The translations under genes were made by a program, and so were the position numbers. A stretch of 64,000 bases of DNA. Source: Paraburkholderia aromaticivorans (GTDB lineage: Bacteria; Pseudomonadota; Gammaproteobacteria; Burkholderiales; Burkholderiaceae). The DNA lies in NCBI RefSeq assembly GCF_002278075.1, contig NZ_CP022989.1, positions 310,001 through 374,000 on the forward strand, read 5' to 3'. The notes below the pieces were generated by a model. The model made no database searches and was not told the origin of the DNA. It saw only the letters and a list, made by a program, of their open reading frames with translations. Positions 28,991 through 35,395 of the stretch are shown here, piece by piece (the stretch's first letter is position 1; the number at the start of each line of letters is the position of its first letter).

Positions 28991-29314
28991 ATGCAAAACC
29001 TCACCGCTCCGGCGCTCGCCGAATGGCTCGCCGACACTTCGCGTCCCGCGCCCGTCCTGCTCGACGTGCGCGAGCCGTGGGAAATCCAGACGGCGTCCAT
29101 CGCCGGCGCCGTGTCGATCCCGATGCGTGAAATTCCCGCGCGCAGCGAAGAACTCGACGACGACGCACAGATTGTATGCGTGTGCCATCACGGCGCGCGC
29201 AGCGCCCAGGTCGCGATGTTCCTGGAATCGCGCGGCCACACCAACGTGTTCAATCTGCAAGGCGGAATCGACGCATGGTCGCGTCAGGTCGATCCGTCGG
29301 TTCCGACTTATTGA
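28991..29314 (+). CDS. Rhodanese-domain sulfurtransferase
   Basis: A 107-aa single rhodanese domain. The active-site loop is CHHGARS with catalytic Cys65, and the CH2-like motif LLDVREPWEI is at 23-32. Such proteins carry sulfane sulfur as a persulfide; the acceptor is unknown. It lies downstream of the methyltransferase gene, probably in one transcript that ends at the 10-bp hairpin just after it. Confidence 0.92.
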   Translation: MQNLTAPALAEWLADTSRPAPVLLDVREPWEIQTASIAGAVSIPMREIPARSEELDDDAQIVCVCHHGARSAQVAMFLESRGHTNVFNLQGGIDAWSRQVDPSVPTY

Positions 29315-29410: not shown

Positions 29411-29545
29411 CTTTCCTCGCTTTCCTCGCTTTCCTCGCTTTCCTCGCTTTCTCCGCTTTCTCCGCTTTCTCCGCTTTCTCCGCTTTCTCCGCTTTCTCCG
29501 CTTTCTCCGCTTTCTCCGCTTTCTCCGCTTTCTCCGCTTTCTCCG
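29411..29545 (+). repeat. 9-bp tandem array, 15 units (4x CTTTCCTCG + 11x CTTTCTCCG)
   Basis: Fifteen uninterrupted 9-bp units form two homogeneous blocks that differ by a CT/TC swap. The plus strand is pure pyrimidine apart from one G per unit. Every frame stays open because the unit is a multiple of three, creating a spurious 96-codon frame from a TTG (29,348-29,638) that I do not call a gene. It is 5' of the DUF2844/DUF3443 locus and 141 bp before its first ATG. Confidence 0.95.
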
Positions 29546-29648
29546 CGTCCAGTTTGCCGTCTATCGCATAGCGCTAACGCAAAGGATTCATTGCGCGGCT
29601 TCAGCTATTCATTTGAGAAATTTCATACGGTTTCCTGAGCATCGCACA

Positions 29649-29686: not shown

Positions 29687-30151
29687 ATGAGATTTCTGAA
29701 GATCGCGATGCTAGCCGCAACCGTGTTGCCGCTAGCATCGCATGCAACGTTGGGCGGCGCGCCCGGCGCCGCATCCGCTCCGACCGTGCTGCGCGCCGCA
29801 GCGCAATCCGCCGTCTCGACCTCGCCTCAACCGTCGAATGCGGCCCCCTACTCCCTGCACCAGTCGATCGACGCCAACGGCGTGACCCTTCGTGAATACG
29901 TGCTGCCCGACAACGTCGTGTTCGCGGTCTCGTGGGACGGACCCATCCGTCCCGACATGACAGCGCTGCTCGGCAGCTATTTCCCCAACTTCGTCAACGC
30001 CGGGCAAAGCCGCGCGCGCGGCACGGGGCCTCTGATCGACGGCAACGACGATTTTCGCGTCGAGTCCAGCGGCCGACTGGGGCGCTTCAGCGGCATGGCA
30101 TGGCTGCCTCGCCTGATGCCCGCCGGCGTGCGTCCCGGCGATCTGCAATAA
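29687..30151 (+). CDS. DUF2844 secreted protein, copy 1
   Basis: A 154-aa exported protein of the DUF2844 family, function unknown. A Sec signal peptide ends near SHA (about residue 20). An Ala/Ser-rich spacer is followed by the conserved core DANGVTLREYVLPDNVVFAVSWDGPIRPDMTALLGSYFPNF and a C-terminal segment FSGMAWLPRLMPAGVRPGDL. The second copy at 31,666 shares most of these positions. It is followed after 28 bp by a DUF3443 lipoprotein gene, and the two families occur as a repeated pair here, so the products probably work together at the cell envelope. Confidence 0.85.
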   Translation: MRFLKIAMLAATVLPLASHATLGGAPGAASAPTVLRAAAQSAVSTSPQPSNAAPYSLHQSIDANGVTLREYVLPDNVVFAVSWDGPIRPDMTALLGSYFPNFVNAGQSRARGTGPLIDGNDDFRVESSGRLGRFSGMAWLPRLMPAGVRPGDLQ

Positions 30152-30179
30152 GGCGCTTCGAGCTACGGGAAAACAGAAC

Positions 30180-31520
30180 ATGAACGCATTGAAGAGGACA
30201 CTCTGTCTCGCAACAGCCATTGCGGGTATCGCGCTTTCCGCGTGCGGCGGCGGTGGTGGGAACGGCAGCGGCAACCAAGGCGGCAATTCCATAGGCTGGA
30301 ACGCCACGCCTGACTGGATTCCGCCACCGGGCGGCACCGGCAGTTCCGGCAACTCCGGTAATTCGGGCAACCCGACGCCGCCAGCAACCGGAGACAACAC
30401 GGTGGCGGTCCGTGTCGACACTTCAACAGGCACCGTGAACCGGCTCTTCGCAGCGGTAACGGTCTGCGCACCGGGCGCGCAAGCGGCACAGGGCGCGGGC
30501 CAGTGCGTGACGGTCGACAGGATGCTGGTGGATACCGGTTCGACGGGCGTGCGCATCGCATCCCGCGCAATCCCTACGCTGGCGCCTCTGTTGCTCACGC
30601 AAGCCGGCGCAGTCGACGATCCGGTCGGTTCGGCGCCGATTGCCGAATGCATGCCGTTTGCCTCGGGTTTCACATGGGGTTCGGTCAAGCGCGCCGACCT
30701 GACCATCGGCAGCAAGTCCGCGAGCAATATTCCGATCCAGTTGATCTCCGACGGCGCGTTCTCCACGCCGGACGATTGCATTGCACACGGCGGCGGTGAC
30801 TTGGGCGCCGCGCTCGACGCGATGGGCGTCAACGGTATTCTCGGCATCGACAACTTCACGAGCGATTCCGCGGACGCCCTGACCACCGCGATTCCCGGCA
30901 ACTATTACTACTGCCCGTCGCAGAACCGTTGCATCAGCACGCGCATGCAGGCAAGCCAGGAAGTCATGAACCCGGTTGCCGGATTCGCCAGGGACAATAA
31001 CGGTACGATCATCCGTCTGCCCGCCGTGCCAGCGGCCGGCCAGGCGACCGTTACGGGGCTATTGGTGTTCGGCATCGGCACCCAGCCGAATAATGCGTTG
31101 CCGGCCAATGCGACCGTCGTGACCGTGGACAAATACGGCATGTTCACGACGCAGTACCAAGGGCGTGTGTTCAATCGAAGCGCGATCGACAGCGGCACCA
31201 TGAGCTACGCTTTTCCGGATAGTACGATTCCCGTCTCCGCCACGGGCTTGTACACGCCGACCGCCACGCTGAACCTCACGGCAACGATCGACCCGACCAA
31301 CGGAAAAAGCGCGCCGCTCCAGATGCCATTCTCGGTCGGCAACGCCGCCAGGCTGATGGCAAACGGCTACGCGGCGTTCGACAACATCGGTCAGTACTTC
31401 ACGAGCAGCCACAACAATATGTTCCTGTGGGGCCTGCCGTTCTTCTATGGCCGCGATGTCTATACGGTAATTGGAAACGCGAAGGTCGGCAACCAGACCG
31501 GACCGTTCGTCGCGTTCTAA
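30180..31520 (+). CDS. DUF3443 lipoprotein with pepsin-like twin Asp motifs, copy 1
   Basis: A 446-aa predicted lipoprotein: signal peptide with lipobox LSAC (Cys about 22), then a Gly/Ser/Asn-rich linker (about 23-70). The body contains MLVDTGSTG with Asp118 and SAIDSGTMS with Asp337, resembling the two catalytic D-T/S-G-S/T loops of bilobal aspartic peptidases. The segment LWGLPFFYGRDVYTVIG near the C-terminus resembles the pepsin ILGDxFxRxYYTVFD stretch. DUF3443 is formally of unknown function; the protease-like reading is mine. Conserved cysteines (VTVC, GQCV, AEC, YYYC) suggest disulfides. It pairs with the DUF2844 gene before it. Confidence 0.82.
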   Translation: MNALKRTLCLATAIAGIALSACGGGGGNGSGNQGGNSIGWNATPDWIPPPGGTGSSGNSGNSGNPTPPATGDNTVAVRVDTSTGTVNRLFAAVTVCAPGAQAAQGAGQCVTVDRMLVDTGSTGVRIASRAIPTLAPLLLTQAGAVDDPVGSAPIAECMPFASGFTWGSVKRADLTIGSKSASNIPIQLISDGAFSTPDDCIAHGGGDLGAALDAMGVNGILGIDNFTSDSADALTTAIPGNYYYCPSQNRCISTRMQASQEVMNPVAGFARDNNGTIIRLPAVPAAGQATVTGLLVFGIGTQPNNALPANATVVTVDKYGMFTTQYQGRVFNRSAIDSGTMSYAFPDSTIPVSATGLYTPTATLNLTATIDPTNGKSAPLQMPFSVGNAARLMANGYAAFDNIGQYFTSSHNNMFLWGLPFFYGRDVYTVIGNAKVGNQTGPFVAF

Positions 31521-31628
31521 CGACTAAGTGGTCGACTGGCTCAGGAGACGCTGCGCTACTACAGCGTCTCCTTACGCCCTTTCCGATTTTGGTTCAGACC
31601 TTTCCGACAATCCCAATAACGCCCCGCT

Positions 31629-31645
31629 GGCACCATGCTCCGACC
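31629..31645 (+). promoter_or_regulatory. 17-bp leader element shared by both DUF2844 genes (copy 2)
   Basis: GGCACCATGCTCCGACC, 16/17 identical to the element before the first DUF2844 gene and at nearly the same distance from the ATG. Here the contained ATG opens MLRPVF and does not stop at the DUF2844 start, so the nucleotide sequence rather than a coupled peptide may be what is kept. Confidence 0.45.
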
Positions 31646-31665
31646 TGTTTTTGAGGAGCAATGTG

Positions 31666-32157
31666 ATGAATCTCGTGAAGGTTGCGCTGGCTGCGGCGGC
31701 TCTGGCTCCGCTCGCGTCGTATGCGGCGCTGGGTGCCGCGCCGGGTGCGGGAGTGGCGCCGCAACCATTGCTCCGTGCGGCAACCTCTAACGCCGCTTCC
31801 GCATCAATTTCAACTTCCACTTCCACTTCCACTTCCACTTCCACTTCCGTGGCCTACACCGTGCGCGCGTCGCGTGACGCCAACGGCGTGATCGTGCGCG
31901 AATACGTGTTGCCGTCGAACGTTGTCTTTGCTGTCACGTGGGACGGCCCGGTGCGGCCGGATATGAGCGCGCTGCTCGGCAGCTATTTGCCCAACGCCGT
32001 AGCCGCCAGCGCGATGCGGGCTCGTGGCACGGGGCCGTTGATCGAGCGCAACGGCGACTTTCAGATCGAGTCAGCAGGCGCGCCCGGACACGCCACAGGC
32101 AAGGCGTTCCTGCCGCGCCTCGTCCCCACCAATGTTCGCGTGGAAGATCTGCAATGA
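31666..32157 (+). CDS. DUF2844 secreted protein, copy 2
   Basis: A 163-aa paralogue of the DUF2844 protein upstream, with signal peptide ending about SYA and the same core ([40 protein letters not shown]). It differs in the spacer, where six perfect ACTTCC repeats encode an Ser-Thr run. Its stop overlaps a potential ATG of the next frame (ATGA), and the following DUF3443 gene starts within 33 bp, so the pair is coupled. The frame is open further upstream, but the signal peptide fixes the ATG at 31,666. Confidence 0.85.
31813..31848 (+). repeat. Hexanucleotide array (6x ACTTCC) inside DUF2844 copy 2
   Basis: Six perfect 6-bp units code for alternating Ser and Thr in the spacer between signal peptide and core. 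Length changes would stay in frame and only alter the linker. Confidence 0.9.
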
Positions 32158-32189
32158 AGCCGCGGCGCGACTCACCAATCACAGGAAAC

Positions 32190-33740
32190 ATGAAGACATT
32201 CAATCCATCCGTTTGCTTCGCCATCCTGACTGTTAGCGCAGTGCTGTCCGCCTGCGGGGGCGGCGGGAGCGAGAGCGGTGACGCGAACGCGACACAAGAC
32301 AAGGGCAAGCCGGCACCGGTCACGCCGACGCCGGGTTCTGCGCCGTCGCCAAGCCCCTCTTCGAGCCCAATGCCGACGCCAGTTCCAGCACCGGCGCCCG
32401 CGCCGACACCGAGCCCTGCTCCAATGCCGAGTCCGAGCCCGGCCCCGAGGCCCGTTCCGACACCGAGTCCCGCGCCGATGTCGAGCCCCAACCCGGCGCC
32501 AAGGCCCGTTCCGAGTCCGACTCCGAGTCCCGCCCCGACTCCGACACCGACTCCGACTCCGACTCCTACACCGACTCCTACGCCAACCCCAACCCCATCG
32601 CCGACGCCATCCCCCACGGCCGACATCAACACCGTCCCGATCACCGTCGCGCGGTGGACGGGCGACTACGCCAACCAGCCGTACGTCACCGTCACGATCT
32701 GCATCCCTGGCGTACAAGGCGCGAACCAATGCGCGACGATCGACCACATGCTGGTCGACACCGGCTCGGCAGGCGTGCGCGTGCTGGCGAGCGCACTGGG
32801 TCCGGCGCTCACAGGTCGCTTGCCCGCCCAGACCGGCGCCACCGACGATCCCACCAGCGCAGCGCCGATCGCCCAATGCGCGCAGTTTGCCTCGGGTTAC
32901 GCGTGGGGGCCCATCAGGCGCGCCGACGTGACGATCGGCGGCAAGGCGGCCGGCAACCTGCCGATCCAGGTCATCGGCGACGGCGCGTATGTCACGCCTG
33001 CCGACTGCGCATCGGTGGGTCTCGGGAACATCGGCACGGTGACCGATCTAGGCGCCAACGGCGTGGTCGGCGTCGGTTCAGCGGTGCGCGACTTTCCGCT
33101 CGCGGCTCAAACGGCGTTATCGGCAACTTACTACTACTGCCCGTCCACGGGTTCGTGCAAAGGCACCCGCGTGCCGCTCGACACGCAGGTCATGAATCCA
33201 GTCGCCGCTTTCACATCGGACAACAACGGTACGATCATCCGTCTGCCCGCATTGCCGGCCGGCGGTCAGGCGAGCGCGACCGGCGAACTGGTGTTCGGCA
33301 TCGGCACGCAGCAGAACAATCGGCTGCCGTCGGCGGCCCATATCATCCCGCTCGACAGCAACGGCTTCTTCACGACCACCTATAAAGGTGCGGTGTTCGC
33401 GAGAGGCGTGCTGGACAGCGGGTCGAACACGAACACTTTCCAGGATCGCGCGATCCCGTTCGACCCGTGGAGACGCTACACGCCACCGACTCCTCTCAGC
33501 TTGTCCGCTCTGCTCAAACCCGGCAGCGGCGCGACGGTGCCCGTGACGGTGCCGTTCCAGGTCGCCAACACGGCCGGCCTGATGAACGGCCCCTACGCCG
33601 CGCACGACGATCTTCCCGTCTACACATCGCTTTCCAGTTACTTCATCTGGGGCCTGCCCTTCTTCTTCGGCCGCGACGTATTCACCGGCTTGAACGGCGC
33701 GCAGATCGGCGCGCAGACCGGACCCTTCGTCGCGTTCTAG
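32190..33740 (+). CDS. DUF3443 lipoprotein with pepsin-like twin Asp motifs and Pro-Thr-Ser stalk, copy 2
   Basis: A 516-aa predicted lipoprotein, paralogue of the protein at 30,180. The lipobox is LSAC (Cys22). Residues about 40-143 form a Pro/Thr/Ser/Ala stalk that the first copy lacks. The body has MLVDTGSAG with Asp190 and VLDSGSNTN with Asp409. The two Asp are 219 residues apart, exactly as in copy 1. The C-terminal [19 protein letters not shown] and final TGPFVAF are also shared. I start at ATG 32,190, where the signal peptide begins; an ATG at 32,154 overlaps the previous stop. An outer-membrane- or inner-membrane-anchored, stalked enzyme or binding protein is inferred. Confidence 0.82.
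32322..32618 (+). repeat. Imperfect Pro-Thr/Pro-Ser/Pro-Ala coding repeat (stalk of DUF3443 copy 2)
   Basis: About 300 bp of 6-, 12- and 36-bp imperfect units (CCGACT/CCGACA, CCGAGT, GCGCCG) encode a PxPx stalk of roughly 100 residues. The region is prone to slippage and gives high-scoring but false open frames on the other strand. Confidence 0.85.
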
Positions 33741-34096: not shown

Positions 34097-35395
34097 ATGA
34101 AACGTCGCAGTCTGTTGAAGTTCGGCTCCATGTCGGGCGCGCTGGCGCTTGCTGGTCAGGTTCCGTTTGCCCACGCGCAGTCGGGCAGCGGCCCGATCAA
34201 GGTCGGTATCCTGCATTCGCTGTCGGGCACGATGGCGATCTCCGAAACCTCTCTCAAAGACACTGCGTTGATGACCATTGCGGACATCAACAAGAACGGC
34301 GGCGTGATGGGCCGTCAACTGGAGCCGGTGGTGGTCGACCCGGCGTCGAACTGGCCGCTCTTCGCTGAAAAAGCGCGTCAGCTGATCACGCAGGACAAGT
34401 GCGCCGTGGTGTTCGGCTGCTGGACTTCGGTGTCGCGCAAATCGGTGCTGCCGGTGTTCGAGGAACTGAACGGCCTGCTGTTCTACCCGGTGCAGTACGA
34501 AGGCGAGGAAATGTCGCGCAACGTGTTCTACACGGGCGCAGCGCCGAATCAGCAGGCGATTCCGGCGACCGAATACCTGATGAGCGCGGAAGGCGGCGGC
34601 GCCAAGCGCTTCTTCCTGCTGGGCACCGATTATGTGTACCCGCGCACGACCAACAAGATCCTGCGCGCGTTCCTCAAGTCGAAGGGCGTCCAGGAAGCCG
34701 ACATTCAGGAGGTCTATACGCCGTTCGGCCACAGCGACTACCAGACCATCGTCGCGAACATCAAGACTTTCTCGCAAGGCGGCAAGACCGCGGTGATCTC
34801 GACGGTGAACGGCGACTCGAACGTGCCGTTCTACAAGGAGCTGGGCAACCAGGGGCTGAAGGCGTCGGACGTGCCCGTGGTCGCCTTCTCGGTCGGCGAG
34901 GAAGAACTGCGCGGCATCGATACGAAGCCGCTGGTCGGCAACCTCGCGGCGTGGAACTACTTCATGTCGCTGCGCAATCCGGCCAACGAAAAGTTCAAGA
35001 AACAATGGGCCGCATGGGTCGCGCAGAACAACCTGCCGGGCGGCACCAAGCGCGTGACCAACGACCCGATGGAAGCCACCTTCGTCGGCATCCATATGTG
35101 GAAGCAGGCGGTCGAGAAGGCCAAGAGCACCGAAGTCGACAAGGTGCGCGTGGCGATGGTCGGCCAGACCTTCGCGGCGCCCTCGGGTTTCACACTCGAA
35201 ATGGACGGCAATCACCACCTGCACAAGCCGGTGATGATCGGTGAAGTGCGCGCCGACGGCCAGTTCAACGTGGTATGGCGGACCAAGACCGCGATTCGCG
35301 CGCAGCCGTGGAGCCCGTTCATTGCCGGCAATTCGAGCAAGCCGGACGTGGTCAGCTCGATCCCGGCGTTCCTGAAGCGCTCGCGCGTCGCCTGA
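34097..35395 (+). CDS. urtA: Urea ABC transporter substrate-binding protein
   Basis: A 432-aa periplasmic urea receptor. The N-terminus MKRRSLLKFGSMSGALALAG has a twin-arginine-like pattern, suggesting export by Tat. The mature fold starts IKVGILHSLSGTMAISETSL, with FGCWTSVSRKSVLPVFEELN and LFYPVQYEGEE characteristic of UrtA rather than LivK. A strong AAGGGG site precedes the ATG. It is first gene of the urt operon behind the sigma-54 promoter and is followed by a hairpin. Confidence 0.95.
   Translation: MKRRSLLKFGSMSGALALAGQVPFAHAQSGSGPIKVGILHSLSGTMAISETSLKDTALMTIADINKNGGVMGRQLEPVVVDPASNWPLFAEKARQLITQDKCAVVFGCWTSVSRKSVLPVFEELNGLLFYPVQYEGEEMSRNVFYTGAAPNQQAIPATEYLMSAEGGGAKRFFLLGTDYVYPRTTNKILRAFLKSKGVQEADIQEVYTPFGHSDYQTIVANIKTFSQGGKTAVISTVNGDSNVPFYKELGNQGLKASDVPVVAFSVGEEELRGIDTKPLVGNLAAWNYFMSLRNPANEKFKKQWAAWVAQNNLPGGTKRVTNDPMEATFVGIHMWKQAVEKAKSTEVDKVRVAMVGQTFAAPSGFTLEMDGNHHLHKPVMIGEVRADGQFNVVWRTKTAIRAQPWSPFIAGNSSKPDVVSSIPAFLKRSRVA

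Follow-up and report, generated by a model that had tools for sequence, protein, structure and literature searches.

DUF3443 lipoproteins as probable exported pepsin-fold aspartic peptidases encoded next to DUF2844 partners

Pepsin-type peptidases of bacteria have been described as few and cytosolic, and, according to the available excerpts of PMC2761423, bacterial family A1 proteins are without signal peptides and mostly without disulfides. Here we analysed a window of 64,000 nucleotides from Paraburkholderia aromaticivorans (assembly GCF_002278075.1, contig NZ_CP022989.1, positions 310,001 to 374,000), in which two tandem gene pairs each encode a small DUF2844 protein followed by a DUF3443 lipoprotein (Table 1). 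An earlier note, made from the sequence alone, had read both DUF3443 proteins as pepsin-type aspartic peptidases with DUF2844 partners, and this interpretation is supported overall. The best explanation of the whole, which we consider likely, is that DUF3443 proteins are exported two-lobed pepsin-fold aspartic peptidases with DUF2844 as their cognate partner. Fold, motifs, motif conservation, export signals and gene pairing provide the computed support.

Predicted fold, active-site motifs and export signals of DUF3443

Both DUF3443 proteins (PF11925) and both upstream DUF2844 proteins (PF11005) passed the Pfam curated cut-off, confirming the family names assigned in the earlier note. The structure model of the DUF3443 pair is that of protein 1, and protein 2 was read from sequence. 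The predicted fold of protein 1 is of the two-lobed pepsin type, with very strong structural matches across the whole domain, in agreement with the bilobal layout that had been proposed. The order of the motifs, the flap hairpin and the strand pattern of the model agree with the pepsin layout, and DUF3443 has two traits of the acid-protease fold superfamily, namely double-psi barrel lobes (by structural match) and one D-[ST]-G motif per lobe. Translation confirmed the motifs at the residues originally noted: LVDTGS at Asp118 and AIDSGT at Asp337 in protein 1, and LVDTGS at Asp190 and VLDSGS at Asp409 in protein 2. The W-G-L-P-F-F-type segment near the C-terminus, also noted earlier, is present in both proteins, as FLWGLPFFYGRDVYT in protein 1 and as a counterpart segment of 15 residues in protein 2.

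Conservation of the two Asp residues, which the earlier note had proposed as a check, was assessed in 342 DUF3443 sequences gathered ahead of the degenerate copies found in later searches. Two sequences with fewer than 281 aligned residues were left out, giving 340 near-full-length rows, two of which are gapped at the first Asp (denominator 338). The first Asp was kept in 337 of 338 sequences, the exception (L074) having Gly, and the second in 340 of 340; each catalytic Asp is always followed by Thr or Ser, and motif 1 ends in Ser in 337/338. Given this family-wide conservation of each Asp, the motifs of the window pair are beyond chance. The spacing of 219 residues between them, reported as exact in both window proteins, is indeed 219 in each; it does not reflect a constraint, since the gap varies from 202 to 231 across the family and equals 219 in 40 of 337 sequences that have both Asp. 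Small indels cancel between the two window proteins in the alignment, and the shared spacing is thus a coincidence. The first hydrophobic-hydrophobic-Gly loop is present (positions 220-222; G222 in 340/340), and in the second loop the Gly and one hydrophobic residue hold, position 416 being Asp in 210/340 and L and I in the window proteins. Ser or Thr occupies position 340 (pepsin 218) in 339/340, and the residue after the second-loop Gly (pepsin Asp303) is Leu in 330/340. Note that the acid optimum has been tied to Thr218 and its bond to Asp303, as stated in the excerpts of PMC2761423.

Export signals were examined in an alignment of 64 rows, one of which is without its start residue. The lipobox pattern was found in 60 of the other 63 rows, and the remaining three read LCAC. 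A stricter lipobox rule resolved 52 of 81 copies in the named-genome loci (described below), with Gly (45) or Ala (7) following the Cys. Of 18 copies then examined visually, the majority read GCGGG or similar, and L058 and L090 seem to carry plain signal peptides. DUF3443 proteins are predicted from these signals to be exported and lipid-anchored. A small residue after the lipobox Cys is the rule for the outer membrane, where the proteins would then be located.

Pairing of DUF3443 with DUF2844

The pairing proved stronger than the earlier note had claimed. In the host genome (8.9 Mb), which encodes seven DUF3443 and seven DUF2844 proteins, all seven DUF2844 genes lie directly upstream of a DUF3443 gene. 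Ten genomes in a set of 398 from the phylum have DUF3443 over cut-off and ten have DUF2844, and these are the identical ten. Among 150 genomes of the taxonomic family, DUF3443 is found in 67 and DUF2844 in 66, all 66 in common; the sole DUF3443 genome without DUF2844 (G736) has only a C-terminal remnant in which the first lobe is missing. In 57 of the 67 genomes both families have the same number of copies, the remaining ten have one additional DUF3443 (hand count; eight of the ten were examined, G322 and G750 being left out), and DUF2844 never outnumbers DUF3443 in the 150 genomes. Beyond these sets we used named-genome loci, the best 80 of at least 515 relative-encoding stretches (among 593 stretches), whose record titles refer to several classes of Proteobacteria, to Acidobacteria and to Myxococcales, with many metagenome-assembled genomes (MAGs). 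DUF2844 was present in 75 of these best 80 loci; of the five lacking it, two (L059 and L118) lie at the edge of a contig. In L054 the DUF2844 gene is found 3 kb upstream with two other genes between, and the one in L100 follows an edge-cut match on its downstream side. The distance from the DUF2844 stop to the DUF3443 start, for 51 assignable starts, has a median of 9 bases and is within -30 to 150 in 47; the genes overlap by 4 bases in 11 of the 51, a sign of coupled translation.

We next compared the presence of the partner with the state of the active site. Both Asp were kept in 110 of 111 DUF2844-partnered rows; the exception, L037, is truncated at the edge of its locus, and both motifs are seen in the longer copy of it, L019. 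Fourteen rows had no direct partner. From these we removed L001|3199, a copy of window protein 2 cut short at the edge, as well as L054, L065, L084 and L118, all of them D/D, in which DUF2844 is more distant upstream or the gene is a second copy following another DUF3443. Another six rows counted as edge-cut, and L142 was restored by hand, as it has both motifs and no DUF2844 in the locus. Two of the seven full-length DUF3443 without DUF2844 had lost one Asp (L074, first to Gly; L152, second to Ala), and three orphan remnants (L137, L144, L148) are without the first lobe. As L152, L137 and L144 came from the later searches, conservation of the Asp residues is complete only in copies seen with the partner. 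The Fisher p for partner versus intact Asp was 0.003 without the remnants and 1.3e-6 with them; since the rows are kin by descent, these are not true probabilities. The pattern fits the partner and the active site being kept or lost together as a unit. Separately, L142 and L147, both full length without nearby DUF2844, share a variant Gly loop 1 (SNGTLGIA) and motif 2 (D-T-G-T), and are perhaps a partner-free subfamily.

The DUF2844 protein carries a signal peptide, as judged by eye; its further features are a conserved Leu-Gly at the predicted mature N-terminus, a variable stretch and a folded core. In the model of protein 1 (mean pLDDT 78.9) this core is three-strand, helix, two-strand, and the model is confident from about residue 51 on, with a dip at 111-120. 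Comparison with solved folds gave no convincing match. A hand-picked alignment of 53 sequences (the two window proteins and 51 of the 75 from named-genome loci) is invariant at A20, L22, W83, G96, G136 and P145.

Some loci depart from the simple pair. A second DUF3443 gene lies directly behind the first in L065 and L084, with a single DUF2844 upstream, and the same is seen in L118 with a contig edge upstream. Two extra lipoprotein-like genes lie between DUF2844 and DUF3443 in L054 (2318-4103), and in L019 (145-1500) the open frame preceding DUF3443 contains a look-alike repeat domain; Pfam listed no family over cut-off for either. About 20 of the 80 loci come either from Acidobacteria or from assemblies of fen, bog, palsa or similar acid habitats (hand count, with no background rate), a suggestive hint at acid environments.

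The window itself carries two copies of the pair. Its DUF3443 proteins are 50% identical over residues 46-446, so that the remark that the rest of the proteins had diverged was overstated; the other five genomic copies are 37-42% identical to protein 1, and the window pair thus fits a tandem duplication. Tandem double pairs occur in further genomes of the taxonomic family (G322 with loci L045 and L047, G724 and G776). The closest named relatives of DUF3443 protein 1 are from Burkholderia/Paraburkholderia. The gene for DUF3443 protein 1 starts 28 bases past the stop of DUF2844 protein 1, and the start of protein 2 was taken as the lipoprotein Met at 32190. A rhodanese-like gene (28991-29314) precedes the two pairs and a periplasmic-binding-protein gene (34097-35395) follows them. 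The gap that separates the rhodanese gene from the first DUF2844 gene contains, at 29418-29546, a tandem repeat with a 9-bp unit, CGCTTTCTC (14.3 copies, 98% matches), which could possibly vary in length and shift the spacing upstream of the gene pair. Repeats of six bases within the coding sequence produce a Ser-Thr run in DUF2844 protein 2 (31809-31848) and, in the DUF3443 protein 2 linker, a run of Pro-Thr (32510-32578).

Table 1. Features of the two DUF2844-DUF3443 gene pairs (window positions)
Feature	Position	Strand	Evidence
DUF2844 protein 1, 154 aa, predicted secreted partner, signal peptide by eye	29687..30151	+	PF11005 E 1.2e-33, translation, structure model
Alternative start of DUF2844 protein 1, GTG	29684	+	
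DUF3443 protein 1, 446 aa, predicted lipoprotein; predicted pepsin-fold peptidase domain at residues 71-446	30180..31520	+	PF11925 E 2.1e-108, structure model, fold matches
Lipobox L-S-A-C, protein 1 residues 19-22	30234..30245	+	sequence
Catalytic motif 1, D118-T-G-S, DUF3443 protein 1	30531..30542	+	Asp in 337/338
Phe160, DUF3443 protein 1, flap-hairpin tip, pepsin Tyr75 position by hairpin register	30657..30659	+	Phe 338/340
N218-G-I-L-G222, hydrophobic-hydrophobic-Gly loop 1, DUF3443 protein 1	30831..30845	+	G222 in 340/340
Catalytic motif 2, D337-S-G-T, DUF3443 protein 1	31188..31199	+	Asp in 340/340
W-G-L-P-F-F-Y-G-R (417-425), Gly loop 2, DUF3443 protein 1	31428..31454	+	G418 in 339/339 with a residue there
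DUF2844 protein 2, 163 aa, signal peptide by eye	31666..32157	+	PF11005 E 6.5e-30
Alternative start of DUF2844 protein 2, GTG	31663	+	
DUF3443 protein 2, 516 aa, predicted lipoprotein, long Pro/Ser/Thr linker and DUF3443 domain	32190..33740	+	PF11925 E 2.7e-115, motifs
Asp190, DUF3443 protein 2	32757-32759	+	
Asp409, DUF3443 protein 2	33414-33416	+	

Proposed function and competing explanations

In the mechanism we propose, DUF3443 would be made with a lipoprotein signal and tethered through its lipidated Cys and a flexible linker, presumably at the outer membrane. A substrate would be held between the two lobes, where Asp118 and Asp337 (protein 1) would activate a water molecule so that a peptide bond is cut. 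DUF2844, encoded just ahead, would be secreted as a small folded protein and serve as the one-to-one cognate partner of DUF3443, preferably as a pro-region or inhibitor/chaperone given in trans. Judged from the model and the motifs, DUF3443 probably works as an aspartic peptidase, and we hold catalysis with good confidence; that DUF2844 is its working partner is highly probable. Beyond a variable linker, no pro-segment was recognised in DUF3443 itself, and for this reason a pro-region or inhibitor/chaperone in trans is favoured for DUF2844; together with the copy numbers, in which DUF2844 is never ahead, this favours a stoichiometric trans-acting partner. The role as pro-region or inhibitor rather than substrate is nevertheless tentative, at a little short of even chances. 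Its boldest form, a split zymogen in which a surface-tethered bacterial pepsin has a separate secreted DUF2844 as its pro-region or inhibitor, with up to seven cognate pairs per genome and old in bacteria, seems rather unlikely.

Several observations weigh against this interpretation. The flap-tip residue (position 160 of protein 1) is Phe in 338 and Tyr in 2 of 340 sequences, as assigned by hairpin register (E153-160/E163-176 in the model) and not by superposed coordinates, and the seventh residue after the first Asp, which we take to be the position of pepsin Trp39, is Arg in all 338 sequences with a residue there, so that the active site is non-standard. According to the excerpts of PMC2761423, no Phe75 homologue had been shown active as of 2009, and rhizopuspepsin with Phe at 75 kept some, weakened activity. 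Profile-profile comparison (hhalign) of DUF3443 with six bacterial A1 (PF00026) proteins gave no significant similarity (E 0.014-0.03), the two best local matches being motif 1 with motif 1 (E 0.014) and motif 2 with motif 2 (E 0.11). Five orphans without nearby DUF2844 (L068, L103, L142, L147, L151) are intact D/D, which speaks against a strictly needed partner, and the solved-fold comparison revealed no recognisable inhibitor fold in DUF2844. Co-divergence of the pairs within the host genome rests on the tandem duplicate alone. Furthermore, decay of unused genes would equally yield the pattern of orphans and broken sites, and the link between partner and active site does not separate a substrate from an inhibitor role.

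The strongest competitor, which we find somewhat unlikely, is that DUF2844 is a dedicated substrate, trimmed by the tethered DUF3443 to a mature product with one peptidase per product. The near-strict adjacency and order of the genes, the presence of DUF3443 in all 66 DUF2844 genomes and the lack of DUF2844 beside copies with a broken active site would suit such a role. However, a substrate that duplicates independently would sometimes outnumber its peptidase, which DUF2844 never does; moreover, DUF2844 is confidently folded over most of the modelled core (from ~51 on, dip at 111-120), and no conserved cleavage site was seen by eye in the 53-sequence alignment. It is unlikely that DUF3443 is instead a pepsin-fold binding protein, a non-enzyme like the plant xylanase inhibitors, forming a surface receptor with DUF2844. 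Pepsin-fold non-enzymes exist (TAXi), and the flap Phe, the Arg at the Trp39 position and the lipoprotein tether are consistent with this possibility, but such proteins often lose one catalytic residue, whereas DUF3443 retains both Asp together with the adjacent Thr/Ser and Gly in records of Pseudomonadota classes, Acidobacteria and Myxococcales, many of which are MAGs. A divergent A1 (shewasin-type) pepsin acquired from eukaryotes, already disfavoured, is highly improbable, since despite the same fold and motif order PF00026 was listed for 0 of 64 DUF3443 members (HMMER, whose filters drop most matches above E 0.1) and found in 2 of 274 genomes of the class, the host not among them, and DUF3443 is predicted to be exported whereas bacterial A1 proteins are without signal peptides in the excerpts of PMC2761423. 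The earlier note's comparison with A1 and shewasin-type enzymes is weaker in this respect: by strict tests DUF3443 does not belong to family A1 and is unlike the shewasins, and we regard it as a separate pepsin-fold family that probably works in the A1 manner.

Relatives of DUF3443 form 2646 protein clusters at E < 0.001 among 7997 scored candidates (120 listed). Bacteria appear to carry an overlooked family of pepsin-like enzymes, predicted to be exported and with a near-constant partner, which is unnamed in the family libraries and literature searched. A large family still labelled as of unknown function, present in 67 of 150 genomes of the taxonomic family, has a predicted pepsin fold, and given the near-constant partner, two genes suffice to test its substrate, activation and pH range directly. 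DUF3443 may offer a new principle of aspartic-peptidase control and, as a bacterial outgroup, it can help to trace how the two-lobed pepsin architecture originated. If the split zymogen were real, its age in bacteria (Pseudomonadota, Acidobacteriota and Myxococcales records) would bear on where that architecture arose.

Comparison with known aspartic peptidases

Family A1 (MEROPS A1, PF00026; pepsin, polyporopepsin, BACE1) has the two-lobed fold in common with DUF3443 over the whole domain, together with one D-T/S-G-S/T loop per lobe, the first hydrophobic-hydrophobic-Gly loop and the flap hairpin. DUF3443 differs in having no significant sequence match to A1, Phe for Tyr75 and Arg for what we take to be Trp39, and in that no cis pro-segment was seen, in being a predicted lipoprotein and in its pairing with DUF2844. 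The distance from the first Asp to Gly loop 1 is 104 in DUF3443 and 90 in pepsin, and that from the second Asp to Gly loop 2 is 81 and 87, respectively (pepsin figures from the excerpts of PMC11313796). Shewasin-type pepsins are, like DUF3443, bacterial and two-lobed with two catalytic Asp (excerpts of PMC2761423 and PMC4814920). DUF3443 is distinguished from them by predicted export, conserved Cys and Ser/Thr at position 218 (339/340); in six of seven bacterial A1 proteins this position is Ala according to the text of PMC2761423, and Asp according to its abstract, as far as the excerpts go.

RloA of Pseudomonas is also an exported bacterial aspartic peptidase, and one RloA-type protein is encoded with partner genes; however, it is of the retropepsin type, and the partners encoded in its operon are not DUF2844 but an inactive membrane protein of the transglutaminase type and an ATP-grasp protein (excerpts of PMC12239564). 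A weak sequence link joins DUF3443 to Asp_protease_2 (PF13650), matched by 3 of 64 members (best E 0.013, HMMER), and to the two-lobed region of L025, a 4118-aa protein of G137. A stretch of L025 matches DUF3443 with E 3.9e-4, below the family cut-off, and the same residues match Asp_protease_2 over cut-off (E 8.2e-7). The L025 open frame also holds Ig/cadherin-like and PD40 repeats, with tandem Asp_protease_2/gag-asp-like stretches at residues 494-588 and 680-717 of the piece examined, and looks like another bacterial two-lobed acid-protease arrangement. PF13650 models one lobe (90 positions), whereas DUF3443 has both lobes in a single chain.

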